From an archaeon (GTDB taxonomy: Archaea > Asgardarchaeota > Hermodarchaeia > Hermodarchaeales > Hermodarchaeaceae): a stretch of 37,601 nt of DNA. How positions within the stretch are numbered: position 1 is the stretch's first letter; each line of letters opens with the position of its first letter. Location of the stretch: the NCBI GenBank assembly GCA_016550425.1, contig JABXGS010000215.1, forward strand, positions 1-37,601. The letters run 5' to 3'. Below, in pieces: positions 4,295-37,276 of this stretch. The notes under the pieces were generated by a model. That model was given only the letters and a program-made list of their open reading frames with translations, was not told where the DNA came from and ran no database searches. The position numbers and the translations under genes were made by a program.

Positions 4295-4359
4295 AAGAGT
4301 TACGGTTCTACACCCAGTCTGACCATAAGTTGTGTCCAGCGTGCCAGGTTAGCTGAATT

Positions 4360-4372
4360 ACTTTATCAGCTT
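4360..4372 (-). promoter_or_regulatory. Shared promoter-like motif upstream of uvrA
   Basis: On the minus strand this reads AAGCTGATAAAGT. It lies 66-78 nt upstream of the uvrA ATG and matches a motif upstream of uvrB (6577-6589) at 12 of 13 positions. The GATAAAG core could be a weak TATA element. The site also forms one arm of an inverted repeat AGCTGA-N9-TCAGCT at 4351-4371. Promoter role is inferred. Confidence 0.4.
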
Positions 4373-4437
4373 TCTCACACGTGAACATCTGTTTAATCAT
4401 ATAAGCGGAGGGGAGACCAAGGTGAAAGTAATCTACG

Positions 4438-19049: not shown

Positions 19050-20036
19050 ATGAGAAAGAAACCAACCCTTATTCTTTACCACCCTCTAATGGCGGTTGAA
19101 GGCTACCCAGTATTGGCGGGCCGAGTACAACCAGCCTTTGATTATCTTCGAGAAACTGGAACTCTCGATGCTACCCAGACCAAAGTAGAAGAAGCCCCGA
19201 AAGTAAGTGAAAAGTTGCTTCTAAAGGTCCATACTTCGGATCACATCAGAAGGGTAAAAGATTCAGGGTATGATCCTGCTTCATTGGTATCCAGTGGTTC
19301 AGCTATTCGTGCTGGTGAAGCTGTGTGGGTAGGTGACGCTGCGAATGCGTTTGCTTTTACTGGTTGTGCTGGGCACCATGCAAGCCGTGATTCCTTTTGG
19401 GGATTCTGCTATTACAATAACACAGCGTTATTAGTGCGCCATTTGCAGCAAACACATGGAGCGAAACGGTTCTTCATTGTTGATACAGATCCCCATCCAG
19501 GAGATGGAACTCGTGATACGCTTGGTGACGATGAAGGAGTATACCATCTGAATTTTGAAGCGAGTTTTCGAGAGAGCTTCGATTTGGTCACACACCGCCA
19601 TATAGACGTTCCCTTTCCCAGCAGCAGTAGTGATGACTCCTTTGTCACAGCAGTTCGCCGATTGGTGCACCCCTTGGCCCGTCAGATTCGCCCCGAGATG
19701 ATTCTATGGAATATGGGACACGATGCACACGCATTGGATTATGGTGGATTTAATCTGTCATTAGCGGCCTTTCCAGCTATGACGGAGATTCTTATGCAGG
19801 CCGCAGAAGAAGTCTGTTCAGGTCGATTAGTCGTATTACTATCCGGAGGATCCGAAGTGTCAGTCGCTAAACACGCCATCTCCGGAATTGTCCGAACACT
19901 TGCTGGACTCCCCCAGCTTCCTGCCGATGTTCGCGATGAACCAACTACGGAATCAGCAGCCACGAAAAAACAAGCTAAGGAGATCGTTGACAAGATCCTC
20001 ACCGAACTTGGAGTAGGAGCGAAGGAATCAGACTAG
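19050..20036 (+). CDS. Histone-deacetylase-fold amidohydrolase with altered active site
   Basis: A 328-residue member of the arginase/HDAC superfamily. The catalytic His pair is visible in GCAGHHAS (H109, H110). Metal ligands are D147 and H149 in VDTDPHPGDGT, and D225 in MGHDAHALDYGG. Two differences stand out: the second His of the usual DxDxHHGDG is Pro150, and the position of the catalytic Tyr in the usual GGY is Ser268 (LSGGSEVS). It may therefore deacetylate weakly or act on an unusual substrate such as an acylated polyamine or metabolite. It ends one base before the convergent SMC operon end. Its divergent neighbour is an acetyltransferase, which may hint at opposing reactions. Confidence 0.8.
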   Translation: MRKKPTLILYHPLMAVEGYPVLAGRVQPAFDYLRETGTLDATQTKVEEAPKVSEKLLLKVHTSDHIRRVKDSGYDPASLVSSGSAIRAGEAVWVGDAANAFAFTGCAGHHASRDSFWGFCYYNNTALLVRHLQQTHGAKRFFIVDTDPHPGDGTRDTLGDDEGVYHLNFEASFRESFDLVTHRHIDVPFPSSSSDDSFVTAVRRLVHPLARQIRPEMILWNMGHDAHALDYGGFNLSLAAFPAMTEILMQAAEEVCSGRLVVLLSGGSEVSVAKHAISGIVRTLAGLPQLPADVRDEPTTESAATKKQAKEIVDKILTELGVGAKESD

Positions 20037-20037
20037 C

Positions 20038-20475
20038 TCAGAAAAAGGGGTAAGGGTTGAGGAGACATTGGATTTCCTTTAGTTTGGAGAAAAACCGCCC
20101 TTTATTCTGTTTATGTTTTGTTTTTGACGGAGCTTTCTGTGGTTGAGATTTTACCGACTCTTTTTTCTTCGAAGGAAGCGGTTCAGGTGATGGGGAAACG
20201 CCTTTAGCGGTTTGCGCTGCTGCTTCTTGTGGAAGAATTTCTCTTTGGAAGATAAGGCTCAGGGGATTTGACATATCCAGTTGCCCATCAGCATATTGGA
20301 TTTCTTGATAGAATTGTTTCCATCGTCGAACAACTTGCTTTACCCAACTAGGAGATTTTGCGTCAACCACACCCAATAACTCCATATAGCACGCAATGTA
20401 AATTCGTTGAAAAGTTGTAATGGAGTGAGTGGTAAATAGTTTACGCTTTGTAGGGATTTTAGCCTGTAGTACCAA
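20038..20475 (-). CDS. Last gene of the SMC operon, basic-tailed protein of unknown function
   Basis: A 145-residue protein I do not recognise. Residues 15-65 look like a compact helical domain (FQRIYIACYMELLGV, then WVKQVVRRWKQFYQEI). Residues 85-130 are a disordered-looking linker rich in Lys, Pro, Ser and Gln, with KKKESVKSQPQKAPSKTKHK, followed by a short hydrophobic tail. Such a basic linker could bind DNA. The start is a TTG at 20475 overlapping the upstream RING gene by 17 nt; the next in-frame ATG (20385) would remove half of the helical domain. Translational coupling places it in the SMC operon. Confidence 0.55.
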   Translation of the reverse strand: MVLQAKIPTKRKLFTTHSITTFQRIYIACYMELLGVVDAKSPSWVKQVVRRWKQFYQEIQYADGQLDMSNPLSLIFQREILPQEAAAQTAKGVSPSPEPLPSKKKESVKSQPQKAPSKTKHKQNKGRFFSKLKEIQCLLNPYPFF

Positions 20476-20920
20476 TTTTTTCCCAAGTTTTCCATTTGCC
20501 CTGAGTTCGCTGAACTAAAACAAGACCGTAGCGTTGCCAAATTTCTTCTCGTGTAAGGGCTTCTTCAGGTTCGGGGTGGAGCCGACTCGAATGGTGAGGT
20601 TTTTCTAACCTTAGATCCTTAGAATAAAACAGAGTGTCAATTAAGACCCCGACCCGACCTTTCTGATATTGATCTTTTACAAAGATGAGGATTTGTTCTG
20701 AAGGAATGTCAGATAGCTGTAGAGTATGGCGAGAAACGCCTTGACTAAATGACGGACATGTACCACCCATGGTGTTTTGGACGATTTGAAGACAATGGGG
20801 ATCAATGAAAAATTGACAACGGAGACATTGATGCCACCCATTTTGAATTGCCTCTTCGAGTGTTGTTCGTGTACCACACGCCACACAACTAATCCCGACT
20901 GTAGAAAGATCAAGTTTCAT
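20459..20920 (-). CDS. RING-like zinc-binding protein of the SMC operon
   Basis: A 153-residue protein with an N-terminal zinc domain: C12-x2-C15, C32-x2-C35, then D40, H42 and C43, and C55-P. The spacing C-x4-[D/H]-x2-C after the second CxxC, followed by CP, resembles the variant RING of the Smc5/6 subunit Nse1. It is clearly related to the protein at 26831-27217: both read CVAC...TLEEA...C-x2-C-x3-I...C...CP. A role as an E3-like adaptor for the ubiquitin-like pathway is inferred. The C-terminal part (about 65-150) is unrecognised. The open frame extends upstream to 21028, but the ATG at 20920 is chosen because it gives an 11-nt overlap with the winged-helix gene. Confidence 0.7.
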   Translation of the reverse strand: MKLDLSTVGISCVACGTRTTLEEAIQNGWHQCLRCQFFIDPHCLQIVQNTMGGTCPSFSQGVSRHTLQLSDIPSEQILIFVKDQYQKGRVGVLIDTLFYSKDLRLEKPHHSSRLHPEPEEALTREEIWQRYGLVLVQRTQGKWKTWEKIGTTG

Positions 20921-21557
20921 TCTTTGTGTCCTCCCTTTGAGAAACGGCACCAGCGAGATAGAGGGTGGCAGCGTTGGCGATGGCTTCGCGACGTTCCGAA
21001 TCAAATTCAAGTTCGAGTCGTGGACCATAAGCCACTCGTCGAGTAGATCGGTTAATATATCCCAATTCCGTCAGACGCCTTAGGATTTTATCCAATTGAT
21101 AACGGGAAAGGCGCCCACGGGCAACGAGAATAGTTTCGATATCTTTCGTCGAGACGTGTCGCGGTCGGCGATGTTTACTAGCACGTTCCACCGTGGAGAT
21201 GATAACTCCGAGTACAGCATATTCGGGATCTGAGAGTTCTCCTGGAACGCCATAGATAGTTCGGATACAATAGAGGGTATCACGTCCCAATCGATATTCA
21301 ACTAATTCCAATCCAAGGGGGGAAATCTGTTGCCGGAGTAAATCCAGTAGACGAGTCAGCCCTGATTTGTTGATATGCAGAGCTTCTAGAAGATTTTGCC
21401 GTTTGACTCCGATGCTGAGTTGCCCTTCTTCATTACGAAATCGTGCGGTGAGTGCGGCGAATAATTGACCGAGGAGATGGCGTTGCTCGAATTCATCGTC
21501 TTTTGGCGTATCGGTGGGTTTGGCGGATTCAGAAGAGGGGGGATTGGATGTCGTCAA
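20910..21557 (-). CDS. Tandem winged-helix KITE-like subunit of the SMC complex
   Basis: A 215-residue protein with an acidic disordered N-terminus (residues 1-25) and two winged-helix-like units. The first spans about 28-105 (LLGQLFAALTARF through NKSGLTRLLDLLRQQISPLGLELVEYRLGRDTLYCIRT). The second spans about 108-190 (DPEYAVLGVIISTVERA through LDKILRRLTELGYINR). Two winged helices in a small SMC-operon protein is the KITE plan (ScpB, MukE, Nse1, Nse3). The first unit's order, a helix then INxxL-like, LxxL and yxLxx strand, recalls Nse1. It overlaps the kleisin-like gene by four bases (ATGA), implying coupled translation and probably fixed stoichiometry. A role bridging kleisin and the RING protein is inferred. 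Confidence 0.65.
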   Translation of the reverse strand: MTTSNPPSSESAKPTDTPKDDEFEQRHLLGQLFAALTARFRNEEGQLSIGVKRQNLLEALHINKSGLTRLLDLLRQQISPLGLELVEYRLGRDTLYCIRTIYGVPGELSDPEYAVLGVIISTVERASKHRRPRHVSTKDIETILVARGRLSRYQLDKILRRLTELGYINRSTRRVAYGPRLELEFDSERREAIANAATLYLAGAVSQREDTKNET

Positions 21558-22351
21558 TGTGTAACCTCCTCATGGTTTTTTGCAGCAATAGCAACAGCTG
21601 CATATATTGAATCCGCTTTTCGAGATGGTGATGATTTCCGGAAGTGAACTACAGTTTTTTCGAAGGTAGCCGGGAGTATATCATCTCGAATCAGTTGGCT
21701 TAATAGATCCAATTCCCAGTTTGTTAAGAGTTCTGATAATGCTATGTAGTTGTACCGTTTTCCTTGGAGGCGCTTCACGATTGAGGCTCGCCGGGCATCA
21801 AGATCATCGAACGAAATGTCTTTGAAAGGTATTCGATGTCGGCGCATTGCCTGCTGATCGTCGGGGGAAGGTGGTTCAGCCATTGCTACAGGAGAATCTG
21901 TAGGAGGTAAATCGAGCGGTGGAATAGTATGATCAGGATTGATTAGAAACAGAAGAGGAGTAGCCCGACGTTTAACCTCATTGGCAAATTGGGAAATCCA
22001 TTCTTCAGGGGCAATTTCAGGAGTAGCCAATTGGGAATCGCGATGGTGTTGCATTGAAGCAAGTGTGTAATAGAAGCGACCATCGAGGTTTCGTTCCCAA
22101 GGTGTTTCGAGTACGCGATATGCATCAGTGACTTCCTCGCGGTCTATTTCCGCTTCTTTAACGGGAAATACCTCATGTTGTTTGAGAGCTACTTCGTATT
22201 TTTTCGTGAGATTCCAGAGGGTGATGACCACGGTTTTTGTGCCATGTTTGGTTAGCTGATTCCGTTTGTAGTTATGCTGGAATGTGTCGTACCAGGCTTT
22301 ACGTCGCGGAAAGGCACGGAGGAAAGTAGAAGTATCATTGGAAATCATCAT
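21554..22351 (-). CDS. Kleisin-like subunit of the SMC complex
   Basis: A 265-residue protein directly after, and overlapping by four bases (ATGA), the SMC gene. It has an N-terminal helical domain (about 1-125), a Pro-rich linker (about 145-170, PPLDLPPTDSPVAMAEPPSP), and a C-terminal domain of about 90 residues. The last contains helices (DDLDARRASIVKRLQ, YIALSELLTNWELDLLSQLI) and strands, consistent with a winged helix. Globular ends joined by a flexible middle is how kleisins (ScpA, MukF, Nse4) bridge the neck and head of SMC dimers. Sequence similarity alone is not convincing by eye, so the call rests on layout and operon position. Confidence 0.55.
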   Translation of the reverse strand: MMISNDTSTFLRAFPRRKAWYDTFQHNYKRNQLTKHGTKTVVITLWNLTKKYEVALKQHEVFPVKEAEIDREEVTDAYRVLETPWERNLDGRFYYTLASMQHHRDSQLATPEIAPEEWISQFANEVKRRATPLLFLINPDHTIPPLDLPPTDSPVAMAEPPSPDDQQAMRRHRIPFKDISFDDLDARRASIVKRLQGKRYNYIALSELLTNWELDLLSQLIRDDILPATFEKTVVHFRKSSPSRKADSIYAAVAIAAKNHEEVTH

Positions 22352-25242
22352 TTCTTCACCTGCCCTTTAAGGAGGACCACGTGGTGCATTGTCTCTGGAA
22401 TCTGAAGCCCTACTGTGGATGGAGCCATTAATAGAAATTGGGGATTGATTAGTGATTCTTGCTGGGTCAAATCAAGGGCTCGCTGAACGACACTAAGAAT
22501 TGCTGCGCGGCTTGCTTCATCTAGACGTTGAGTGAATTCATCAATCACGTGAAGAGGACTCTTTGCAAGGGTATGCAGTGCTAAAATAAAGGTTTGAGTA
22601 GCCAGCACACGTTCCCCGCCCGACATTTCCTGATAGGTTCGCCATTCACCTCTACGATTGATAGCCAATTGGAGGTGGAGTTCTGCCCGACTGGGTTCGT
22701 CAGGAAAGCGAATAAGTAATTTGACTTGTTTGAGGAAGTGGCTAAGCAGCTGATTCATTCGTTGGTTCAAAGTTTCGACTGTTTGTTCGAGTTGTCGCCG
22801 CCACTCCAGTAATCGACGATCAACGTCCGTCATGAGATTTTCAAGATGAAGCTGTCGTTGAGTGAGATATTCTTGGAGTTGAGACACCACCTTTTCTTGT
22901 TCTTCAAAAGCGTGACGATCTTCTGCCGTTGCTGTGATAGTATCAATCATAGCCTGGATTTGGATTTGCTCATCACGGATCGCAGTAGGTTCTCGAACCA
23001 CCGCAGGGCGTTCCGCAAGCTTGGTTGCAGCTTTTCGGAAGTCCTTGGTTTGTTTCATGAGATGTTCGTATTCATCTTCTCGTTGTTTGAGCTCATCGGA
23101 TAAACGGTCAATTTCTGCTTGACGACGAGATTGCCGTGAGCTAAGAGTGTGGAGTTGTCCTGTGATTTCTTGTTGTCTGGAATTGAGTGGCGATAAATCC
23201 GAGTTACAGTCTTGATAATCTTGGCTGAGTGCATCACAGCCAGTTTCTAATTCAAGAATCTGCTGTTGAAGTTCTGTAATGCGACGGTCTGCATCCGTGA
23301 TTAAAGCAGTTCGTTCTTCACTAGATAGCTGAATGGTATGGGCTGCCTGCAAATCTTGAAGGATAGATCGAAGTTGGCTTATCTCTGCATTAATGCGCAT
23401 CCGATCCCGCATGAAATGAGCTTCCTGCTCCCGAAGTTCGCGAAGCTGGCGACGTCCGTCAGTAACGTCGTGTGTTAGACTCAGTTCATGGAGTGTGATA
23501 TCTAAGCTGACAGTTACTGGACGGGGAGGACGAGTAAATGCGCCTATTCGGAGATAATGGCTTGAACCTTCACTAGTGATGATGTTACCATTGAGCTGTT
23601 GAGTGGCATCTACTAACGTATTTGGATCAGCACCTTCTTCTGCGATGGCAGTATTTACTACACGGTTAAGAAAACTCACCGCGTACAGATCGCCTTCGAT
23701 GAGATCTGCAGCCCACCCAATTACAGGTGATGAAACAGCCGGCCGGTCTCGCGTGATTGCAGTGGTGGGATTTGTACGGGCGACCACCAAGTCAGGTTTT
23801 TCGTGAGGCCAGAGCCGATCATAAAGGTTCTTGGCTTCGACGAAAACTTCGCGGTTAAGTGCGATAAACGAGTAGGTGTAGCGACCTAAGGCGAGTTTCA
23901 CCGCAGTTTCATGTTGGGTATATTCAGGTTTCATCCGGATAAGCGTAAAAAGTGGACCAATGACTGAATCGGAGAGGGCAATTTTATCTAGTTCAGAACG
24001 AAAACGTAGACAGGCGCGAAGGATTTTTTCTTCAAAGTGTGGGTACCGTTGGGGCTGCGAGAAGAGTCCTTCTTCAGCTGATGCTACATCTTGACGAACC
24101 TGTGACAGTTGATCATCGAGTTTATCTCGCTCACTCACGAATTCGTCTAATTCTTTCTGAATGCTGTCGATTTTTGTATTAGCAGGTTTCTGACGTCTAG
24201 TATATCGTTTTGTCCGTGCTTTGAGTGCGTTAAGTTCATTTTCTAATCCTTGACGATGTCCTTGAGATTGCATTTGCTGGTCGCGGAGCTCGTTCATTGT
24301 TGCCAAGAGTTTTTCCCGTTTGGCCAGATTTGCATCCAACTTATCTTGTAGACTAGCCTGACGGGAATTGAGTTTGTCCAGTTTGCCATTCTCAACTGTT
24401 AGTTGATTGTCTAATGTCGTAATCTGTGATTGGAGTTGAGTTGCGAGTTCTTCGCGGTAGGAGACTTCTGCCCAAGCAGCTTCAACATCGAGGTCTTTTT
24501 GTCGTTGTTGGAGTTGCTGTTTTTGCTGAAAGGCTTCATAGGCTGCTTTCAAAACTTGTTGCCGTTGTTGTTCATGGCGAATGCGGTATTCAAGAGGTTT
24601 AACATTGGCTTTTGCCTGTAAAACTAATAGTCGGGCTTCTTCGAGTTTTTCCATCCAACTCCTTAATCCAGTTTCGTTGAGAAGCGTTTCGAATTTTCTT
24701 CGAGGTGATTGAGAAGCAAAATGATCTAATGTTTCAGCTTCTGTAACCGCTAGTGGAGAATCCCCGAACAACCCAGCCGCTTGAAACAGCTTTCGGATAT
24801 CCTTTCGCGCAATTTGGTGTCCATTTACCGATCGTTGCCCATTCAGCCAATAGGATACCCTGTTGGTATTATGAATCCGAAGGCGAATCGAAACCACATC
24901 TTTGTCCAGAAGTTTGGATAAAGCGGTATCAGGGCTACGTAAGACACGGCACCCGTTGATCTGGAAGTTATTAAGTTCTAATTCGACTTCGGCATATTTG
25001 CCAAATCGTCCAATGAAGGCGGAATTTCGTTGGCGTTGAGCCCGCCTAGATTCAACTCCAATAGCTAGCAGAAGCGCATCAAGAATGAGAGTTTTACCAC
25101 TTCCATTTGATCCGGTGATGAGAACGACGGGTGACTCATCGAGTTCAATAGTGGTGTCGCGATGAATGACAAAATTGACTAGGCGGATACTGCGAAACAC
25201 GACCGGTGAGGTTGAAAGGGTTGTCTCTTGCCTAGTGGTCAT
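22348..25242 (-). CDS. SMC-family ATPase with SMC5/6-like head and hinge
   Basis: A 964-residue SMC protein. The N-terminal head has Walker A GSNGSGKT (44-51) after LVNFVIHRDTTIEL. Coiled-coil arms span about 195-390 and 585-840, and a hinge spans about 400-575, starting near GPLFTLIRMK. The C-terminal head has the signature EMSGGER (872-878) and Walker B/D-loop LHVIDEFTQRLDE (897-909). Only about 20 residues separate signature and Walker B, and the DExxQxxD order with the final PQFLLMAPSTVGLQIPE resembles SMC5 (DEINQGMD, QYFxITPKLL) and not canonical archaeal SMC (LDEIDAALD). The hinge segment recalls SMC6. The arms are short for an SMC. It heads a five-gene operon with kleisin-like, KITE-like and RING-like partners. 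Confidence 0.88.
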   Translation of the reverse strand: MTTRQETTLSTSPVVFRSIRLVNFVIHRDTTIELDESPVVLITGSNGSGKTLILDALLLAIGVESRRAQRQRNSAFIGRFGKYAEVELELNNFQINGCRVLRSPDTALSKLLDKDVVSIRLRIHNTNRVSYWLNGQRSVNGHQIARKDIRKLFQAAGLFGDSPLAVTEAETLDHFASQSPRRKFETLLNETGLRSWMEKLEEARLLVLQAKANVKPLEYRIRHEQQRQQVLKAAYEAFQQKQQLQQRQKDLDVEAAWAEVSYREELATQLQSQITTLDNQLTVENGKLDKLNSRQASLQDKLDANLAKREKLLATMNELRDQQMQSQGHRQGLENELNALKARTKRYTRRQKPANTKIDSIQKELDEFVSERDKLDDQLSQVRQDVASAEEGLFSQPQRYPHFEEKILRACLRFRSELDKIALSDSVIGPLFTLIRMKPEYTQHETAVKLALGRYTYSFIALNREVFVEAKNLYDRLWPHEKPDLVVARTNPTTAITRDRPAVSSPVIGWAADLIEGDLYAVSFLNRVVNTAIAEEGADPNTLVDATQQLNGNIITSEGSSHYLRIGAFTRPPRPVTVSLDITLHELSLTHDVTDGRRQLRELREQEAHFMRDRMRINAEISQLRSILQDLQAAHTIQLSSEERTALITDADRRITELQQQILELETGCDALSQDYQDCNSDLSPLNSRQQEITGQLHTLSSRQSRRQAEIDRLSDELKQREDEYEHLMKQTKDFRKAATKLAERPAVVREPTAIRDEQIQIQAMIDTITATAEDRHAFEEQEKVVSQLQEYLTQRQLHLENLMTDVDRRLLEWRRQLEQTVETLNQRMNQLLSHFLKQVKLLIRFPDEPSRAELHLQLAINRRGEWRTYQEMSGGERVLATQTFILALHTLAKSPLHVIDEFTQRLDEASRAAILSVVQRALDLTQQESLINPQFLLMAPSTVGLQIPETMHHVVLLKGQVKK

Positions 25243-25484
25243 TCTATCAGATGAGCTCCCGCGGGTTATCCTGAGCAGATGCCATTTTCACTCTTGCCCA
25301 AGTCTACTAAGTCAGACTAGTCCGTGACTCTTAAACTTTCACTCCAACGAAGGAGTCGGCGCCATTTATCTGCGATATTAAGCCGACCTATTCTCTTTCA
25401 ACCGTTAAAAAGGATAAGAAGCCGCCTAAGGTTCACATAAAGTTAATGTGGATGATATAACCCTCACCTTGTAGGTGAACAGAC
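25243..25484. promoter_or_regulatory. Divergent promoter region between the SMC and ubiquitin-like operons
   Basis: All 242 bp between the two divergent start codons are non-coding. For the plus operon, GATATAAC (about 25453-25461) could be a TATA box, which would make the mRNA almost leaderless. For the SMC operon the best candidate is GTTTAAGA on the minus strand at about 25331-25338. Between them lie a palindrome GACTAGTC (25315-25322) and flanking AGTCA/TGACT arms (25310-25314, 25325-25329), a possible operator able to affect both directions. Confidence 0.5.
25464..25478 (+). promoter_or_regulatory. Hairpin covering the ribosome site of the ubiquitin-like gene
   Basis: TCACCT (25464-25469) and AGGTGA (25473-25478) are perfect complements around a TGT loop. 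The second arm is the only Shine-Dalgarno sequence for the ATG at 25485, so if transcribed the stem would hide it. If the TATA box at about 25455 is used the hairpin is not in the mRNA. Confidence 0.4.
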
Positions 25485-25811
25485 ATGAGTAACGAAGAAG
25501 GTTTTTGGCGCTCAATCATTGTCGACGTTGAGCCACGCCAAAAGGAATTCCGGATTGGCATTGATGAGGAAACTCGAGTCGAGGAGGTTATCCGTACCCT
25601 CGTTACACAAGCCCGCGATGAAGGTGTCAGTATTGACGATTGGGCGAAAGCGAAAATCGGCGATCAACGTGCTGAGTTCGTCTTGATTCGCAAAGCTCCA
25701 GAGCCCACACGGTTAAGTCCCGGTGTGGCCTTTGGTGAGCTTGAGCCGAAAATCACTGACGACGAATTCTTCCTCCTTGATGTCGTTCCCGAAGTTGGAC
25801 AGAAACAATGA
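25485..25811 (+). CDS. Ubiquitin-like beta-grasp protein
   Basis: A 108-residue protein predicted to have the ubiquitin fold. Strand 1 is RSIIVDVEP, strand 2 is KEFRIGIDEETR, and helix 1 is VEEVIRTLVTQARDEG. Then come AEFVLIRK and a typical last segment, RLSPGVAFGELEPKITDDEFFLLDVV, matching the ubiquitin pattern of L-x-P-x-x-[ST/F]-L...-x-D-x-L-x-[LV]. The C-terminus is PEVGQKQ, so there is no terminal diglycine. It would need trimming to expose PEVG, or it is used non-covalently like YukD/EsaB. It is the first gene of the operon with E2-like and RING-like proteins. The start is the ATG at 25485 with AGGTGA eight bases upstream. Confidence 0.72.
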   Translation: MSNEEGFWRSIIVDVEPRQKEFRIGIDEETRVEEVIRTLVTQARDEGVSIDDWAKAKIGDQRAEFVLIRKAPEPTRLSPGVAFGELEPKITDDEFFLLDVVPEVGQKQ

Positions 25812-25856
25812 ATAGAGCCCAATCAGGAGGGCAAAGCATCTGTGAGGGATTACACC

Positions 25857-26603
25857 ATGACACGACCCGTATTCTCGATTGAACTTTTCAACGCCCGAGT
25901 GGAAACACAGATTCAAACATTTTTTGATACTATCAATAATCTCTATGGGCGACGTGGATGGGATCCAGACCCGCCACGGCGAGAAAATACCACCTGGAGT
26001 AATCGTGATTTCACCGTTGCGATTATCGCCCGATATCGTGATGGTGCATACAAACGTATTCGATTCACCATGCGGAATCTACCTGGAATCGTCCGTCAAC
26101 CACGTTCACTCACGGATGAAGGTGCTATCCGATATGAACATCGATTCGTTTTTGATTTACCACGAGAATATCCACAAAATATCGGTACCATCCGACCTGC
26201 AGCTGAAACCCCCCTTTTTCATCCTCGACTCGCCGCCAGTGGAACAGGTCATGCGTGCTATTCCGTTCGAGGAGAGCTTGACCGAATTCTCGAGGATCTA
26301 CCATTCTTTGTGCTGCTAAAACCAGATCGCGTAGAGCCACCATCCCAGTTTGAATCAGATCATGGACTCAATAGTTCGGCGATGGCATGGTACGAACAGG
26401 ACACAAAAAATATCGTCGAAACCTTAGACCGGTTATGGGAAGCGAGACACCAAGCTGGTGCCTCTACCTCACCACGACAGGGCCGGGTCCAGATTCTTTC
26501 ACCTCATTCATCATCAGATACTTCACAACGAAAAACTCCCCAAATTCTAGATAAACCTGAAGAAAAATCAACTGTACGGATTCTTGATGATGAAGATCGT
26601 TAG
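25857..26603 (+). CDS. E2-like (UBC-fold) ubiquitin-like conjugating protein
   Basis: A 248-residue protein whose residues 1-200 fit a UBC/RWD-type fold. After strands with FTVAIIARY and KRIRFTMRNLP comes YEHRFVFDLPREYPQN, then the E2 hallmark PLFHPRLAASGTGHACYS, in which H122-P123 and C134 match the family's HPN...G-x-x-C. C134 is the presumed thioester cysteine. There is no N before the cysteine (HPR in place of HPN). Residues 205-248 form a disordered tail with three V-x-I-L-type motifs at 211-214, 229-232 and 240-243, the last followed by DDEDR. A GTG at 25842 could start it; the ATG at 25857 with GAGGG upstream is preferred. Confidence 0.75.
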   Translation: MTRPVFSIELFNARVETQIQTFFDTINNLYGRRGWDPDPPRRENTTWSNRDFTVAIIARYRDGAYKRIRFTMRNLPGIVRQPRSLTDEGAIRYEHRFVFDLPREYPQNIGTIRPAAETPLFHPRLAASGTGHACYSVRGELDRILEDLPFFVLLKPDRVEPPSQFESDHGLNSSAMAWYEQDTKNIVETLDRLWEARHQAGASTSPRQGRVQILSPHSSSDTSQRKTPQILDKPEEKSTVRILDDEDR

Positions 26604-26615
26604 GAGGAGAGTCTA

Positions 26616-26834
26616 ATGGCAGAGCAGCCACCTAATGATAAAAAAAATACCGAGGAACCCAATAAAAACGAGCAACCTTCACCAGAAGACCTCTCAAAGG
26701 ATAACGGGATTGTGATCTTACAAGAACGAGACATCCCATTTGAAGAAGAACGGCCACCGAATTTCTCCCCACATTATTCAGTCACTGTTCACCATGTCCG
26801 AAAAGAATCTGAGAAGGAGAACCAAGAAGAATGA
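26616..26834 (+). CDS. Small acidic protein with a SIM-like motif
   Basis: A 72-residue hydrophilic protein that appears disordered. Residues 1-30 are rich in Glu, Asn, Pro and Lys. The only hydrophobic cluster is GIVILQERD (31-39), followed by an acidic stretch FEEE, the layout of a SUMO-interacting motif. A second weak strand, SVTVHHV, lies at 55-61. No family is recognised. Strong ribosome site: GGAGGAG about seven bases upstream of the ATG. It sits 12 bp after the E2 gene and overlaps the RING gene by four bases, so it is a firm member of the operon and may be a scaffold or inhibitor of the pathway. Confidence 0.65.
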   Translation: MAEQPPNDKKNTEEPNKNEQPSPEDLSKDNGIVILQERDIPFEEERPPNFSPHYSVTVHHVRKESEKENQEE

Positions 26835-27217
26835 GTGTCCACGGGGCATCGCATATCAAATGTGTGGCTTGCGATTCACAAGTGACTCTCGAAGAAGCAA
26901 GGAGCCAATGGTGGATATGCACATCTTGTGGGAGCTACATTTGTGCTAGTTGCCGTGCCTTATTGTTAGAAGCAGGCGAAGACATTTGTCCAGGAGCCAT
27001 TGCACGAGGCACTGAAACGCATGTGCCCCATTTCAGCCGATTCCTCGGACCACGTCGCGAAGCCGAAATCTCTAATTCTAGTCGAGGTTCGAAAGTGGTG
27101 TTTTTGGGTGATGTTCACCGAAAACCACAACACACGTCTGAAGGTAGAGTTATTATTCTTGATGACGACGAGGCCCAGAGCGAGGAATCAACAACATCAA
27201 ATGGGCAGGAACCATGA
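26831..27217 (+). CDS. RING-like zinc-binding protein of the ubiquitin-like operon
   Basis: A 128-residue protein with an N-terminal zinc domain: C11-x2-C14, C30-x2-C33, C38-x2-C41 and C53-P. It is a paralogue of the RING-like protein at 20459-20920, with CVAC...TLEEA and the same later spacing. Seven cysteines are visible; the eighth ligand is not evident. Its position between the E2-like and transglutaminase genes suggests an E3-like role. Residues 85-128 are a disordered tail with SKVVFLGD (87-94) and GRVIILDDDE (105-114) followed by acidic and Ser residues, resembling a SUMO-interacting motif. It overlaps genes on both sides by four bases. Confidence 0.72.
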   Translation: MSVHGASHIKCVACDSQVTLEEARSQWWICTSCGSYICASCRALLLEAGEDICPGAIARGTETHVPHFSRFLGPRREAEISNSSRGSKVVFLGDVHRKPQHTSEGRVIILDDDEAQSEESTTSNGQEP

Positions 27218-28086
27218 TTTCAGGTTCAGCCATTCTGACTCATCGTCTAACCTACCAAACCCAAGTAGTGAATACCACTACGAGCCCCTTAACGAACATT
27301 CGAATTCTGCTTGCGTTTCCTCCACCCTTTGAACCGTATCAACAGCTGTTGGAGATTAAACCATATCCAAATACGAGTAGGCATGCTAGTGATAAAGAGG
27401 GAAATAACTGGCTGAATATCTCGTGTCCACACTTATCAGGAAATGATACATTCACCTGCGGATACATCGCTTTAATTCGAAATCGCTCCATCCACTATCA
27501 ACCATCACCAGATATTCAAAATCGCTTAATCCCCAACCGGCTGCAGTCATATATAGAACCCGAATATTTCATCGAGTCCCATCACCACTTGATAAAAGAT
27601 CTTGCCCGTGATCTTGCCAAAAAACATCGGAAGCTGATTCCCTTTATCAAAGCAGCTATGCGAGCAGTCACCAAAACTCTCCGTTATGTTCCTCAAGAGC
27701 ATGAGCGAGGGGCAGCATACGCAATTGAACAACAAGTTGGTGACTGTACGGAGTACTCAGCGCTATTTGCAGCAATCTGTAGAGCTAGAAAGATTCCTGC
27801 GCGGTTAATCTCTGGATTCGCAGCTTCGAAGAAGAAATGGGAGCGGCATGGATGGAGTGAGGTATGGATTCGGAATCAGTGGGTGCCTATGGATCCAACT
27901 TGGTTTGGCTCCAATGGATGGCTGGGCATCACGAATCGGCACCTTCCCTTGATTATTGGGAATTGGATGGATATCCGGGCGAATCGTGAATTCAAGGTCA
28001 GTTGGAGACAACAACCACACACTAGTCCTCCTCGGTTAAGTTCAACGTGGAAGGTGAGACAGGTCGTGGGTTTCCAAGCCTCTTAG
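27214..28086 (+). CDS. Transglutaminase-fold cysteine protease-like protein
   Basis: A 290-residue protein. Residues 1-115 look like a beta-sandwich (ILTHRLTYQTQVVN, IRILLAFPPPFEPYQ) and residues 125-235 like a transglutaminase core. The triad is visible as C178 in VGDCTEYSALFAAI, H212 in RHGWSEVWI and D227 in PMDPTW. No signal peptide or membrane segment is seen, so it is probably cytoplasmic. In prokaryotes this fold usually cuts peptide or isopeptide bonds. In this operon it may trim the ubiquitin-like tail, remove conjugates or cross-link proteins; that is inference. It overlaps the RING gene by four bases, and its 3' end overlaps the convergent E1-like gene by 45 bp. Confidence 0.75.
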   Translation: MISGSAILTHRLTYQTQVVNTTTSPLTNIRILLAFPPPFEPYQQLLEIKPYPNTSRHASDKEGNNWLNISCPHLSGNDTFTCGYIALIRNRSIHYQPSPDIQNRLIPNRLQSYIEPEYFIESHHHLIKDLARDLAKKHRKLIPFIKAAMRAVTKTLRYVPQEHERGAAYAIEQQVGDCTEYSALFAAICRARKIPARLISGFAASKKKWERHGWSEVWIRNQWVPMDPTWFGSNGWLGITNRHLPLIIGNWMDIRANREFKVSWRQQPHTSPPRLSSTWKVRQVVGFQAS

Positions 28087-28956
28087 AGATTGGGCATATT
28101 TTCGTTTGGAACGGCAGAAGGCCTCACTGCAACGGGGATTGGGCAGGATTGCTCCGGTTGATGTCTCATGTCGTTGTAAGTCGTATTTGATGTATCGCCC
28201 TAGAGCAGGTTTCAAGTCTTGTTGCCATTTGCCTGTTTTACGCCATTGTTGTAGACCTACTAGCACTTTGGTCGCCTCCCAGGACATCACTGCGCCAACA
28301 ATCGAGGTGACGAAACTAATCATGGGAAAGCGAGGCAGAGTATCAACGAAGAAAGGGTCACAGCGGGTGCGCACTTGATTCGCAACAATAGCATCGACAA
28401 AGTCTTTACTCCAAGAACATACTAGACATGCTGTGTGTGGTGGCGCCAGAACATCAATGGTAACGAAATCTTTTCCCATAGCTCCATTAATCAACGGTAA
28501 AGGGGAATCTAAGCTGAGATTCTTGGCGTTTAACAAGTAACGTGCATAATGATTATCCACCCCGACGAGCACGAGATCCACATCCCAAACACTATCAGGT
28601 GCTTCTTGAATAGGAATAGCATAAGGGTCGATTCGTGTATCGGTCGCTAGTTCAGGGAGTCGTTCCGCCACAGCATCGACTTTGGACTTCACATCATGAT
28701 CCTCAGGTCGAAAGAACACACACCGATTCAAATTCGAGGTCGCGACCTTATCAGGATCGACCAGAATAATTTTGCCAATACCCAGTAACCCAAGATTCTT
28801 ACATACCTCGTTACCCACAGCGCCAGCCCCAATCATGAGTACTGTAGACTGTCGAATTGTTTCTAGATTGGTGACCCCTAACCAGCGGCGAGTTCGATCA
28901 TGATGATCCTTCTCAAAGAAATGAAGATCAATCGGCGTGGGCGTTTTCCTCGTCAT
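28042..28956 (-). CDS. E1-like (ThiF/MoeB family) activating enzyme
   Basis: A 304-residue adenylating enzyme. The Rossmann ATP site is MIGAGAVGNE (41-50), followed by D67 in LVDPDKV, the arginine finger region SNLNR (74-78) and K90/K92. The presumed metal or adenylate aspartate lies in VGVDNHYAR (131-139). Zinc ligands are C177-x2-C180 and C276-x4-C281. C199 in TRCDPFF is the best candidate thioester cysteine, since it lies where MoeB/ThiF carry theirs, before SIVGAVMSWEATK. It lacks the ubiquitin-fold domain of eukaryotic E1, as is usual for prokaryotic forms. An upstream start at 29013 is possible; the ATG at 28956, overlapping the JAB gene by 29 bases, is preferred. Confidence 0.85.
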   Translation of the reverse strand: MTRKTPTPIDLHFFEKDHHDRTRRWLGVTNLETIRQSTVLMIGAGAVGNEVCKNLGLLGIGKIILVDPDKVATSNLNRCVFFRPEDHDVKSKVDAVAERLPELATDTRIDPYAIPIQEAPDSVWDVDLVLVGVDNHYARYLLNAKNLSLDSPLPLINGAMGKDFVTIDVLAPPHTACLVCSWSKDFVDAIVANQVRTRCDPFFVDTLPRFPMISFVTSIVGAVMSWEATKVLVGLQQWRKTGKWQQDLKPALGRYIKYDLQRHETSTGAILPNPRCSEAFCRSKRKYAQSLRGLETHDLSHLPR

Positions 28957-29560
28957 TACCGGGTTCAACCTCCTCAGGTGCGACCAAGTCTTTGCGAGAT
29001 TCAGGTTTACCAAGGGGAACAGAGGGACGATACGTACACCATTTTACTTGTTCAAGTTGTAGACCAGGCTCATCAAGGCGTTCGCGGAGCATGTAGACTT
29101 TAAAAATCTCACTTATTGGATCAATCAAAAAGAACACGTTTCCTTCAGCACAAAAGGGCGTATTAAAGAATGTGTTCAAATCGGTCGAGGAAAAGTGAGG
29201 ATTGCCTCCAAACGGATGTGAATGCCAAAGACCTACGACCCGAGGAGTATGAGGATTATTTCCGTACCGGTCATGGAGTGCAAGTCGATATTCGAGAATG
29301 CCTTCAGGTGTGAATCGTGCATGAGCAATACTGGCTTCAACACGTCCCGTTGCCCAATCGGTGACCCGAATGTATTTTTCTCCATTCCAGATTCGGCGAA
29401 AGCCCAGGATGACGCCTAAGGCTTCCCGTCGTGAGGGACCTAAAGCTGCATCAAGGCAGTAGTTGAATATCTCTTTGCAAGTCCTCTCGAAGATATACAC
29501 AGGAAAGACCGGTGGAATCCGTGATTGTTCTTCATTCGATTGAATTTCTTGTTCGACCAT
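28928..29560 (-). CDS. JAB/JAMM metalloprotease (deconjugase-like)
   Basis: A 210-residue protein with the JAMM zinc site: E46 in SRREALGVILG, H113 and H115 in LWHSHPFGG, and S124 and D127 in FSSTD. The spacing between the second His and Ser is eight residues, one more than the canonical seven. JAMM proteases cut isopeptide or peptide bonds next to ubiquitin-like C-termini, so it should mature or remove the nearby ubiquitin-like protein. The acidic C-terminus (APEEVEPGNDEENAHAD) is likely disordered. The frame is open to an ATG at 29632, but a TATA box at 29617-29624 lies within that extension, so the ATG at 29560 is preferred. It is co-transcribed with the E1-like gene. Confidence 0.82.
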   Translation of the reverse strand: MVEQEIQSNEEQSRIPPVFPVYIFERTCKEIFNYCLDAALGPSRREALGVILGFRRIWNGEKYIRVTDWATGRVEASIAHARFTPEGILEYRLALHDRYGNNPHTPRVVGLWHSHPFGGNPHFSSTDLNTFFNTPFCAEGNVFFLIDPISEIFKVYMLRERLDEPGLQLEQVKWCTYRPSVPLGKPESRKDLVAPEEVEPGNDEENAHAD

Positions 29561-30870: not shown

Positions 30871-32340
30871 TTAGTACAAGGCGCTTGTATTGCCATATCG
30901 GGTGGACCAAGGATATCGGTCCATAATGTTATTTAGGAGACGTCGTAACTTTCCGACTTCGGATGTATTTGCATAGACTAGAAAGCTAACTCGTCCACCC
31001 CGGCTGCGTTTCATTTTCTGGTAAATCGTCTTCACCGTATTTACAGTATCACAGATAATAAGAAGATCAGCATCGGGCAAGTCGAGATCTCGTTCACCGA
31101 CTGGCGAGAGAATCACAGCCGCTGGAGTTTTAGCGTGTTTGAAATCGGCTAAAACAGCTTGTTTGTCTGGAGTTCGTCCAGTAAGCTGGAAAGTGTGAAC
31201 GCCTTTCTCCTGTAGCAGTCCTTCGATTTCGCTCACGACATTGAGATATGAGGAGAGGATGATAGTTCTTTTCGCCTTCAATGCTAGGTCTCGAGCTTTC
31301 AGAGATTTAGGGGTAACTTTTGGCCAGTCTTGCATCATGCGGTTAATATCAATCTGGGATTTGATCGTGGGATGATGAAGATATCGGCGAAAGCTCTTGG
31401 AGGCCATACCGTAAAGATATTTTCGGGTCATGAGGAGTCCACTATATTGCTGGGCGAGCTCTTCGGGGATGGGGAGTTCATGGAGCATCAAATGTAGCAT
31501 GCGAGTGGATTCTGGGAGTTCTCTGATACTTTGCTCTGAGTTTTCTCGGACCATTTGATAAATTTGATCGCGAGTAGATTGGATTAGTTCATCGACGACA
31601 AGCGAAGTTGCGCGTATGACGGAATCTTCGACAGGGATGACATCGAGGATAGTGTGTTTGATATATTGATCCAAATCGGTGTCTATGAGTTCATCCATGC
31701 TAATGAGTTCAACGTTGGGTAGAAAGTTAGCAAGTGTTTGAAGTTCGTCACGAATCTGGAGTTGAGCTTGGTTGAATACTACATGGTCATCTCGGAGTGT
31801 TCCACTAAGCCCGATAATCCAATTTTCTTTGAAAAACTCTAGCAAATAACTCCAAGGTTGAATGAGAACTCGAGTATCTCCTACCCGTCGAAGAAGCGTA
31901 TCCACCTCATTAATTAAGAGTCCCTCAAAATCTGAGCTCGAAAAACCTCCCTTTTTGAGGATATTAGCTAGCACACGTGGCGTACAGAGCACAACTCGGG
32001 AGTCATGAAGAAGTTGTTGACGACGACGCCCCTGAATACGGGGAGAAAGGACCCCTAACCCATCAACACCTCCATACTCTTCTTCAAGGTATTGCGCAGT
32101 TTCTTGAAGCGAGGAAGAAGAATTCACAGTGATGATGAATCGCGTCTCCGGAAAATATTCCGTCACCAATTTGAAGGTGATAACACGTTTCCCAAGTCCG
32201 CAGTCCAGTTCCACCAAAATATTGTGTTCCCGATTGTCCTTGATTCGTTGAAGGATATGTTCTTGATACTGCCGTGGTTCAAATCGGCGAGTATCGGAAA
32301 TGTTATCCTGTGAATGTGGGGGAGGAGAGGAAGGGCTCAT
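30871..32340 (-). CDS. Divergent SF2 helicase/translocase
   Basis: A 489-residue protein with the layout of a Hef/FANCM or DEAH-type SF2 helicase. A Q-motif-like FEPRQYQEHIL (20-30) precedes motif I, VELDCGLGKR (43-52), where the usual GKT/S ends in Arg. Motif Ia is IITVNSSSSL, Ib is VVLCTPRVLA, II is LLINEVD (141-147) with Asn in place of Asp, and III is GLSGT (177-181). The C-terminal domain shows IILSSYLNVVSEIEGLL, FQLTGRT, VILSPVGERDLDLPDADLLI and QKMKRSRGG for motifs IV-VI. The changes at motifs I, II and VI suggest altered or lost ATPase activity. It follows the membrane-protein pair in convergent orientation. Its link to the SMC system is only positional. Confidence 0.72.
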   Translation of the reverse strand: MSPSSPPPHSQDNISDTRRFEPRQYQEHILQRIKDNREHNILVELDCGLGKRVITFKLVTEYFPETRFIITVNSSSSLQETAQYLEEEYGGVDGLGVLSPRIQGRRRQQLLHDSRVVLCTPRVLANILKKGGFSSSDFEGLLINEVDTLLRRVGDTRVLIQPWSYLLEFFKENWIIGLSGTLRDDHVVFNQAQLQIRDELQTLANFLPNVELISMDELIDTDLDQYIKHTILDVIPVEDSVIRATSLVVDELIQSTRDQIYQMVRENSEQSIRELPESTRMLHLMLHELPIPEELAQQYSGLLMTRKYLYGMASKSFRRYLHHPTIKSQIDINRMMQDWPKVTPKSLKARDLALKAKRTIILSSYLNVVSEIEGLLQEKGVHTFQLTGRTPDKQAVLADFKHAKTPAAVILSPVGERDLDLPDADLLIICDTVNTVKTIYQKMKRSRGGRVSFLVYANTSEVGKLRRLLNNIMDRYPWSTRYGNTSALY

Positions 32341-35407: not shown

Positions 35408-35461
35408 TTCAGATAGAAGATGGCATAGATAGGATTAGTACTTGTTTGGTGAGGTTTGGTA

Positions 35462-37276
35462 ATGGAATCGCTGAGAAAAAAAGCTGCGAAGATTTTTGAA
35501 ATTCCAGATTTAACTTTGTTAGATGTGGCCCCCGATGGGAAGTTTTTGCTCCTTGTGAGTAATAAGGATAATGTTCATCATGTTTACAAGCTTCCTCTTG
35601 AAACGCCTAAAACTTGGGTCCAGGTGACATCAGGAGAAGATCGTGTTGTAAGTGGTACGCTATCAAAAGATGGTTCACAGTTTTTGTTTCCGATGGCGTC
35701 TGGAGGCAGTGAAAAACATCACTTGTACTTGTATGATTTCATAAAGGGTAAAACCACGTTACTTCAAGCGCTGGATTCGATGCGAGTAGGATACACGAAG
35801 TGGACACCAGATAATTTCATCCTATTCGAAGCCTCTACACCAGAAACCTTGGGAATATGGAAATATGATGTCTCGGAGAACGCGATTTCCCAAGTCTATC
35901 AAACGATGCAATTTGGTGAAATTGGCCCTGTGAATCCGAAGAGACCACTGATAGCGTGGTCGGAGTATCGCGAGGGTTCTCGTACAGCTATGCTCGTTAA
36001 AACGTTTGATTATCACAACGATGAATTGGTTGATACCATATTTGTATCTGAAGAGAGTCAAAATACTCATTGGGTATGGGATGAAAGGGGCGAGAATCTG
36101 GTCATTTCTACTAATGCTCCAGGTGAGCCGACTTTAGCCGTGTGGAATCGAAGAAGCCAGGATATCCACTATCTTCAAGCTACGGAACTGGGACTAGCGC
36201 TAGATTACGTGGATGTGAAAGCGATCCCTAAGACCAAGGACATTCTCTATGCAGCGAAGAAAGAAGGAAAAACACAATTATATCGTGAACCACTCGATGG
36301 ATCCACACCCCCAATCGAATTACCTTTAGAATCTGGGTGGGTTAGCGCGATTCGTATTGCGAAAACTGGAGAGATTTTTCTTTCGTGGTCTAGCTCTGAT
36401 ACACCCACCCAAGTTGGTGAGTATCTACCAACAGAAAGCAAATTTAGGGTGTTAGCGGATTCCAAACCAAAAGGTGTTACAAGCTTATCTTATGGCGAAT
36501 TTGGCTGGTATCCTGGGTTTAAGGAATGGTCGATTCCTGCCTTCGAGTTTCCGCCTCATGAAGATGCCCCGAAATTACCAGGTGACCCAATCATTATCCT
36601 GATCCATGGAGGTCCATCCTGGGAATTCTCTCAAGATTGGGCATCAATGGGAGTTGTAATTCAAATCTATGCAGCTTCTGGCTTTCGTGTGTTTTGTCCC
36701 AATATCCGGGGAAGTACGGGGTATGGAAGAGAATTCTTGGAAGCCAATATTTTGGATCTGGGTGGAGCAGACCTAGAGGATATCTTAGCGGCTCGCAACT
36801 ATTTGAAAAAGAAGTTTCTGAATTGTAAGAAGATATTTCTTACGGGGGCTAGCTACGGCGGATTTGCAACCTTCCTTGGATTGACTAAATATCCTGGAAT
36901 GTTTGATGCGGGAGTAGCAATTGTGGGTATCACTGATTGGTTTGAAATGCACCGTCTAGGTGATGCGGTTTTCAAAGTCTTCACAGAGCACTTCTTTGGA
37001 AAACCTGAAGAAAACACGGAACTCTACCAAGATCGTTCTGCAATTAATTATGTAGATCAGCTGCAGGAACCACTCTTTATTATTCATCGTGCCAATGATT
37101 CACGATGTCCTGTTGAGCCCATCTATACCTTTGTTGGCAAGGCAATATCACTAAATAAACCAGTGGATATCTACGTAGAAGCCGAAGCGGGCCATGGAGC
37201 TCAAAGAATCGACCATTTGCAGAAGCAATATGGAAAAGCGGTTGAATTCTTCTTAAACCAGGTTTATGAAAAATAA
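35462..37276 (+). CDS. S9-family prolyl oligopeptidase-like serine peptidase
   Basis: A 604-residue peptidase of the acylaminoacyl/dipeptidyl peptidase type. The N-terminal 350 residues are repeated WD-like strands of a beta-propeller (for example FLLLVSNKDNVHHVYKLP and FLFPMASGGSEKHHLYLYD). The alpha/beta-hydrolase domain follows from about IILIHGGPSWEF. The nucleophile Ser is in TGASYGGFATF (AGC at 36851), the Asp in HRANDSRCPVEP and the His in EAGHGAQR. No signal peptide is seen, so it is likely cytoplasmic and acts on short peptides. A TTG at 35456 opens the frame, but the ATG at 35462 is preferred because GTGAGG is seven bases upstream. Confidence 0.92.
   Translation: MESLRKKAAKIFEIPDLTLLDVAPDGKFLLLVSNKDNVHHVYKLPLETPKTWVQVTSGEDRVVSGTLSKDGSQFLFPMASGGSEKHHLYLYDFIKGKTTLLQALDSMRVGYTKWTPDNFILFEASTPETLGIWKYDVSENAISQVYQTMQFGEIGPVNPKRPLIAWSEYREGSRTAMLVKTFDYHNDELVDTIFVSEESQNTHWVWDERGENLVISTNAPGEPTLAVWNRRSQDIHYLQATELGLALDYVDVKAIPKTKDILYAAKKEGKTQLYREPLDGSTPPIELPLESGWVSAIRIAKTGEIFLSWSSSDTPTQVGEYLPTESKFRVLADSKPKGVTSLSYGEFGWYPGFKEWSIPAFEFPPHEDAPKLPGDPIIILIHGGPSWEFSQDWASMGVVIQIYAASGFRVFCPNIRGSTGYGREFLEANILDLGGADLEDILAARNYLKKKFLNCKKIFLTGASYGGFATFLGLTKYPGMFDAGVAIVGITDWFEMHRLGDAVFKVFTEHFFGKPEENTELYQDRSAINYVDQLQEPLFIIHRANDSRCPVEPIYTFVGKAISLNKPVDIYVEAEAGHGAQRIDHLQKQYGKAVEFFLNQVYEK

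Follow-up and report, generated by a model that had tools for sequence, protein, structure and literature searches.

A Smc5/6-like SMC operon encoded together with a predicted ubiquitin-like conjugation pathway in Asgard archaea

Gene content of the locus

The locus described here lies in a stretch of 37,601 nucleotides (the window; contig JABXGS010000215.1 of GenBank assembly GCA_016550425.1) from an Asgard, Hermodarchaeota-like genome. Between positions 20459 and 29560, a minus-strand operon encodes a structural maintenance of chromosomes (SMC) ATPase, a kleisin-like subunit, a KITE subunit and a RING-like zinc protein. This operon is followed by a divergent one for a ubiquitin-like modifier (Ubl), an E2-like enzyme, a small acidic protein, a second RING-like protein and a transglutaminase-fold protein, and by a convergent pair for a JAB protease and an E1-like enzyme (Table 1). 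From their sequences, the products of the last two groups are predicted to form a complete pathway for covalent Ubl conjugation, encoded beside an SMC complex that resembles Smc5/6.

All the open reading frames that a previous sequence-only reading had named in these three groups exist, on the strands that it gave. The ATGA overlaps that it described as coupling the genes are found at the SMC/kleisin, acidic/RING and RING/transglutaminase junctions, whereas kleisin and KITE overlap by TTGA. Its gene starts were moved to ATG 20920 (instead of 21028) for the RING-like gene of the SMC operon, to ATG 25857 for the E2 and to ATG 28956 for the E1, and the JAB start at 29560 (210 aa) agrees with the lengths of its homologues (198-220 aa). 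An open reading frame at 20038-20475 was dropped from the block as unconserved, with a match in a single locus (L002) among the 19 compared.

Pfam recognises SMC_N (2.6e-22), Transglut_core (1.2e-20), ThiF (2.4e-35) and Prok-JAB (2.7e-6) in the window proteins. For the window's own Ubl, E2, kleisin, KITE and SMC-operon RING it gives nothing below E 0.004, and these identities were assigned via relatives.

Table 1. Features of the locus, in coordinates of the whole window
Feature	Position	Strand	Remarks
SMC ATPase, 964 aa	22348..25242	-	Walker A GSNGSGKT, signature SGGER, Walker B HVIDEFTQRLDE; Smc5/6-like hinge
Kleisin-like subunit, 265 aa	21554..22351	-	Assigned by conservation and position between SMC and KITE; no fold match
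KITE subunit, 215 aa	20910..21557	-	Predicted tandem winged helix, nearest ScpB/Nse1
RING-like zinc protein of the SMC operon, 153 aa	20459..20920	-	Start ATG 20920
Ubiquitin-like modifier (Ubl), 108 aa	25485..25811	+	Conserved ...VG, then variable tail QKQ
E2-like enzyme, 248 aa	25857..26603	+	Cys134 at the catalytic position (139 from the GTG start); HPR replaces HPN; VxI[IL] motifs in the tail
SIM-like motif VQIL, E2 tail	26487..26498	+	Position counted by hand on the translation
SIM-like motif VRIL(DDED), C-terminus of E2	26574..26585	+	Position counted by hand on the translation
Small acidic protein, 72 aa	26616..26834	+	Single conserved IVIL motif, 26709-26720 (hand-counted)
Second RING-like zinc protein, 128 aa	26831..27217	+	Tail VIILDDDE; VIIL at 27149-27160 (hand-counted)
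Transglutaminase-fold (papain-like) protein, 290 aa	27214..28086	+	GDC, HGW and PMD motifs in the window protein
E1-like adenylating enzyme, 304 aa	28042..28956	-	Cys218 (numbered from the TTG start) and CxxC/Cx4C, conserved 12/12
JAB/JAMM protease, 210 aa	28928..29560	-	E70, H137, H139, S148 and D151 (numbered from ATG 29632) invariant, 14/14
Divergent intergenic region between the SMC and Ubl genes	25243..25484		242 bp

Linkage and co-occurrence in Asgard genomes

The survey set comprised 227 Asgard genomes, and the Ubl loci counted are those of the window plus 19 genomes (20 loci). An E2 profile search of GTDB genomes led to eight Hermod loci (Hermodarchaeota, one of them Hermodarchaeum yapensis), all of which keep the gene order of the window up to their contig limits. 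Since their flanks (histone deacetylase, helicase, HAD and malic enzyme genes) are likewise conserved, the Hermod loci alone prove little about linkage. The E2 and Ubl profiles match the identical 19 genomes, namely the eight Hermod genomes, nine others that form a second lineage (G063-G071), G061 and G062, and the SMC is present in all 19. The second lineage, labelled Heimdall-type because the Ubl of G065 equals a protein named Heimdallarchaeota (P0181), carries a single operon in the order SMC-kleisin-KITE-RING-JAB-E1-Ubl-E2-acidic, with an SMC 27-29% identical to that of the window and neighbours that are almost wholly different. In four Heimdall-type loci the second RING gene lies 6-9 kb past the acidic gene, and the transglutaminase gene adjoins it in three (L030, L031 and L032).

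On the same contig as the Ubl, the SMC is found in 15 of the 20 loci and in two distinct layouts, so that the rare adjacency in related genomes by which the sequence-only reading would have been undermined was not observed. In the other five loci (L030, L033, L036, L037 and L038) the neighbourhood is cut by a contig end, which in all of them except L037 falls on the SMC side. In G069, G070 and G061 the SMC contig breaks inside or just past the JAB gene, ending in G069 within the first 36 E1 positions, as expected if the same operon had been cut by assembly. Vertical synteny alone was considered as the origin of the adjacency and rejected, as the Heimdall-type loci have the other layout and nearly none of the Hermod flanks; their only flank match to the window links L029 with positions 35456-37276 (25% identical).

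The SMC subunit and its partners

The full-length SMC profile (13 aligned members) matched two Smc6 chains best in the PDB (6e-35 and 9e-26, the human and the yeast protein, respectively), followed by the prokaryotic Smc 5xei (8e-23) and Smc4 (4e-16). Smc6 was again first for the hinge alone (1.2e-4, with JetC next at 0.56) and for the N-lobe (4.4e-13, with SMC 1xew close behind at 3.4e-11), while the C-lobe matched Smc5 first (1.2e-14) and a mixture of others close behind, from 7e-12. All four profile searches thus assign the subunit to the Smc5/6 class, which, together with the model of the KITE subunit, strengthens the analogy with Smc5/6 that had been drawn from the sequence.

Phylogenetically, a first tree without an outgroup did not decide the placement of the locus SMC. 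In a tree of the head domains rooted on Rad50 (two proteins, the zinc-hook search having matched 4 of 14 genomes) and containing no Smc5, the locus SMC, Smc6 and a group of archaeal proteins of 650 aa stand apart from canonical SMC (97/91); among the labels of this tree, P0158 was checked as Smc6, and for P0169 the Smc6 label comes from the Walker B motif alone. The clade is therefore wider than Smc5/6. Its SMC-related ATPases of about 650 aa (P0091, P0094, P0101 and similar proteins, several of them named Bathyarchaeota or related) carry the Walker B motif DEYDIHMDPKNRE. A bacterial protein of 980 aa, P0090 (Planctomycetes FJ291_16415), is a full-length relative of the locus SMC (28%).

The SMC profile detects 51 of the surveyed genomes at E <= 1e-15, 45 of them strongly (E 3e-79 or better): the 19 Ubl genomes, G179 and 25 others. 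Across these 45, the SMC is a single match in 37 and one gene split over contigs in six. Only G061 and G062 hold extra, weaker SMC paralogues on other contigs besides the full-length one (two in G061, one of them in a 987-aa open frame, and one in G062, at a contig edge), and these two genomes may have a second SMC partner.

The order SMC-kleisin-KITE-RING is kept in all 28 loci of sufficient length, so that the RING-like protein belongs to the SMC complex as a standing member; in each of these loci it has its own gene, adjoining that of the KITE subunit, and Pfam RING models match it weakly. Among the 25 other genomes, 13 loci were read: 12 show this core, with no match to Ubl, E2, E1 or JAB on the stretch read, and the last one (L076) breaks off within the kleisin gene. 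Their SMCs do not form one clade, that of G014 branching with the planctomycete P0090. The Ubl arm is thus not essential to the SMC core, and the Ubl module either joined that core or was lost from it in some lineages.

In fold searches with the KITE subunit, ScpB and Nse1 come out together, and each of the 43 genomes with a KITE match has exactly one. A plain ScpB identity was rejected, the hhalign score against 30 Asgard ScpBs (18.4) not being significant next to the best of 40 shuffles (17.6). By themselves, the KITE, RING and Ubl profiles have no significant match in the PDB, while the kleisin profile returns Nse1 (7dg2_A, E 0.021) along with two ribosomal proteins, which was taken as chance. 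The RING-like protein of the SMC operon has the pattern CxxC/H-x16-CxxC-x4-[CD]xxC-...-C-...-H. The RING-like proteins of the two operons are both treble-clef-like zinc proteins. The SP-RING SUMO ligase Nse2 was absent among the Pfam matches, with no model searched for it alone.

The predicted ubiquitin-like pathway

The AlphaFold model of the Ubl is a beta-grasp fold ending at an invariant glycine (Gly105, 34/34), as in a modifier with a C-terminal glycine. The E2 has an invariant cysteine at the catalytic position (19/19), and its conserved LPREYP...HPR...G..C and DxGLNxxAM parallel the E2 pattern YP..HPN..G..C and DPLNxxA. An hhalign comparison with 18 canonical Asgard E2s, chosen by their HPN motif out of 30 loci, gave E 1.4e-5, a probability of 80% and a score of 41.7, with the catalytic cysteines aligned; the best of 40 column shuffles scored 22.7, the reversed profile 14.5, and pairings of A2 or canonical E2 with four profiles of unrelated proteins 10.8-15.9. 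Against the PDB, the E2 profile finds mostly E2s, weakly (best 0.027). A UBC fold with a catalytic cysteine is accordingly predicted, and the rejection of the Ubl and E2 folds, which would have told against the sequence-only reading, did not come about: the structural model supports the first and the profile comparison the homology of the second. The E1, with its ThiF domain, its invariant Cys218 and two cysteine pairs, is of the E1 adenylating type; of the 14 Ubl genomes searched for it, G061 yielded no more than an edge fragment. The JAB protein has the full set of JAMM residues in all 14 sequences. The transglutaminase-fold protein varies in size, with 290 aa in the window and 291 in L005, and 533-550 aa in L001-L004 and L006, where it has extra regions at both ends.

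Short motifs of the form [VI]x[VI][ILV], the pattern of SUMO-interacting motifs (SIMs), occur 98 times in the tails of 52 Hermod-type E2s, against 5.8 expected when each tail is shuffled; the tails being kin, this excess counts conservation and not independent events. The Heimdall-type E2 tails that were parsed hold 2-3 copies, and L037 holds none. One copy is found in the acidic protein in all 17 loci listed, and one to three in the tail of the second RING protein in both lineages.

A second set beside the housekeeping systems

A separate, canonical SMC hinge protein (~1200 aa) is encoded in 7/8 Hermod and 9/9 Heimdall-type genomes, with ScpB about 2.4 kb from it in G001. A canonical E2 was detected in 69 Asgard genomes out of a sample of 99, the eight Hermod genomes among them. 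Because the Hermod genomes hold this canonical E2 and, in seven of eight cases, the canonical SMC as well, the locus represents a dedicated second system.

In genomes with the core and without Ubl (L069-L075 and L081-L085), the canonical SMC hinge is mostly absent, as if replaced by this complex: in nine such genomes searched, it is strong in G022 only, and the match in G016 is the family SMC itself. Several of these loci have a transglutaminase-fold gene about 5-6 kb away.

Neighbouring genes

A gene of the histone deacetylase family (19050-20036) adjoins the SMC operon and is kept in Hermod loci L002-L007. Near the JAB gene, with two small membrane-like open reading frames between, lies a gene for a ResIII/Helicase_C protein with a weak XPB-type match (30871-32340), which is kept there in Hermod loci L001-L006. 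Adjacent UvrA and UvrB genes (1316-6447) represent a bacterial-type excision repair set on an Asgard contig.

Proposed function and alternative explanations

The sequence-only reading, of an SMC loader or sensor under Ubl control that might serve genome maintenance or defence, is supported in part. The reading that we prefer, with moderate confidence, is that of a Smc5/6-like SMC-kleisin-KITE-RING complex served by a predicted complete and dedicated Ubl pathway, which probably tags the complex itself or proteins that it meets on DNA. Building on the gene set, the folds or homology of its products, their linkage in two layouts and their co-occurrence, we infer a course that includes thioester transfer, RING recruitment, the other binding and catalytic steps, the choice of substrate and the biological role. 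The JAB protease, or the transglutaminase-fold protein acting as a peptidase, would expose the Val-Gly end of the Ubl, which the E1 would adenylate and carry as a thioester before passing it to the conserved cysteine of the E2. The RING-like protein of the SMC operon, a possible split counterpart of the KITE-RING protein Nse1, would sit on KITE/kleisin and deliver the charged E2 to the DNA-bound complex. Since the VxI[IL] motifs in the tails of the E2, the acidic protein and the second RING protein fit the SUMO-interacting pattern, they are predicted to dock on the Ubl. By analogy with Nse4, the kleisin would be the favoured substrate; the JAB protease would take the tag off again, and the marks would regulate how the clamp is loaded, retained or released in genome maintenance.

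Several observations weigh against this reading. The identity of the kleisin is positional, and the model of the KITE subunit is middling (pTM 0.51), its top three Foldseek matches reaching TM-scores of 0.28-0.38 only. The Hermod RING of the SMC operon has an aspartate at one zinc-ligand position, and Pfam RING models reach E 0.003 solely in the orthologue of L077, so that neither RING is clear by Pfam. The Ubl ends in VG rather than GG; the E2 has HPR in place of HPN, and the Pfam model UQ_con matches 7 of the 19 E2s (best 2.3e-4; those shown at 16.2-19.4 bits, with a cut-off of 27) and has no match to the window's own E2. In the rooted tree, the grouping of the locus SMC with Smc6 (89/81) carries a long-branch warning, and the AU test does not reject placing it with canonical SMC (p-AU 0.123). 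Further points of this kind are the SMC family without locus-type Ubl or E2 in 25 further genomes and the arrangement in G062, where SMC, Ubl and E1 lie on three contigs and the Ubl (L037) is preceded by 9 kb of unrelated genes, the contig running out downstream.

The last two points favour a different explanation, in which the two modules act separately from a shared locus, the Ubl on other proteins of the cell and the SMC complex as an ordinary second SMC: the core persists where the Ubl is missing, and in G062 neither known gene order is possible, given the unrelated genes upstream. Such separate action is nonetheless improbable in our judgement, as the linkage survives both a divergence to 27-29% SMC identity and a rearrangement into one operon, with JAB and E1 lying between the RING and Ubl genes, the SMC accompanies the Ubl in every genome that has it, and a RING-like gene belongs to the core throughout. 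A sulphur carrier or other non-conjugating Ubl of the MoaD/Urm1 kind, with the E2-like protein as an inactive scaffold, would suit the single ThiF domain of the E1, the best VIA matches to the Ubl, which are non-modifier beta-grasp chains, and an E2 that lacks HPN. It is at odds with the invariant E2 cysteine, the complete JAMM residues, the RING-like genes and the processed-looking C-terminus of the Ubl, and is given little credence here.

Rather unlikely, too, is a defence system in which the SMC would recognise foreign DNA in the manner of Wadjet or Lamassu and the Ubl cascade would mark viral proteins or arm a response. In its favour, bacterial Ubl operons include antiviral ones, among them the Bil operon. 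In PADLOC, the locus SMC distantly matches LmuB (5.9e-21) and JetC (9.4e-14, partial). Moreover, a homologue of the SMC-linked Ubl (L235:4959-5495) with a 69-residue C-terminal extension after VG is encoded, as by a viral mimic or hijacker, on a tailed-virus contig of 90.5 kb (IMGVR_UViG_3300005253_000098), where genes for terminase, DNA polymerase, tape measure and tail proteins are also present; this is compatible either with hijack of the pathway or with defence by it. A search for E2 on that contig found none, an empty answer that shows little, and 50,697 phage records gave no match. A mobile origin was rejected, the Ubl having a single viral relative, and 24 viral SMC matches were dropped because they extend over no more than about 30-80 residues of the ATP-binding end. 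What tells against defence is that no nuclease-like gene is recognised in the block, that PADLOC has no match for kleisin, KITE, either RING, Ubl, E2 or transglutaminase, that the locus and its flanks are syntenic across Hermod loci, unlike a mobile defence island, and that the nearest solved SMC is Smc6 and not JetC.

If the preferred reading of a Ubl-served Smc5/6-like complex is taken further, the self-contained machine of Asgard archaea, including the Heimdall-type, complete with modifier, E1, E2, RING pair, SIM-like motifs and protease, might be a living form of the ancestor of both the ligase-bearing Smc5/6 and SUMO/SIM-style chromosome control, and viruses of these archaea would have a modifier copy as a countermeasure. 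We put this forward tentatively, as a conjecture with the odds against it. A system tied to the archaeal relatives of eukaryotes would make the origin of tag-writing DNA machines testable. The locus also suggests that a second, dedicated Ubl pathway exists alongside the ubiquitin system already known from Asgard archaea, and that a virus encodes its modifier.

Comparison with known systems

In the literature covered, which leaves bioRxiv and most subscription papers outside, no report was found of an SMC complex whose locus also encodes a Ubl pathway. The UFM1 system has a modifier ending in Val-Gly, a single-domain E1 (UBA5) and an E2 without HPN (UFC1), and in these features it matches the locus, where the Ubl ends in VG, the E1 has a single ThiF domain and the E2 lacks HPN; Pfam models of UFM1 and UFC1 were absent among matches up to E 10, at which the HMMER filters drop weak matches. 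Wadjet (JetABCD) and Lamassu have an SMC-type ATPase, and Wadjet also has a kleisin and a KITE subunit. The locus differs from both in that its ten proteins show no match to the JetD nuclease or the LmuA effector, its SMC is nearest to Smc6 and a Ubl pathway is present; the match of the SMC to JetC is the sole one to JetABCD.

To our knowledge, no SMC link exists for the ubiquitin operon of Caldiarchaeum. That operon is an archaeal set of Ub, E1, E2, small RING and JAMM genes (accessible part of PMC5654768; CsUb 6fnn); unlike there, the eight Hermod genomes hold an extra canonical E2 elsewhere. Ubl, E1, E2 and JAB also occur together in Bil and related bacterial operons (accessible part of PMC11354881), which are not known to include an SMC complex, whereas the locus adds the RING pair, the transglutaminase-fold protein and the acidic protein, in an Asgard host.

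Smc5/6 (Smc5, Smc6 and Nse1-4) is the only SMC complex known to us that carries ubiquitin and SUMO ligases. In fission yeast, Nse1 has ubiquitin-ligase activity with Nse4 as a substrate (accessible part of PMC8750328). An archaeal 'SMC5/6-related' SMC (Yoshinaga and Inagaki 2021, as cited in PMC9389158) probably belongs to the same broad SMC group as the locus SMC, a judgement made without sequence-by-sequence comparison; in the accessible text of PMC9389158, the words 'ubiquitin' and 'kleisin' do not occur. Smc5/6 has two different SMC paralogues and two KITE subunits (Nse1 and Nse3), while a single family SMC and a single KITE were found at the locus, and for these two differences the locus is not classified as Smc5/6. 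It has the RING on a separate polypeptide, it is prokaryotic, it includes Ubl, E1, E2 and JAB, and no Nse2 was seen, this not having been searched alone. What it has in common with Smc5/6 is the class of its SMC by profile, the neighbouring kleisin and KITE, the standing RING-type zinc protein and the link to a ubiquitin-type modifier. A Smc5/6-like prokaryotic locus with modifier, E1, E2, RING and protease brings the origin and the mechanism of such machines within reach of experiments on about ten proteins.

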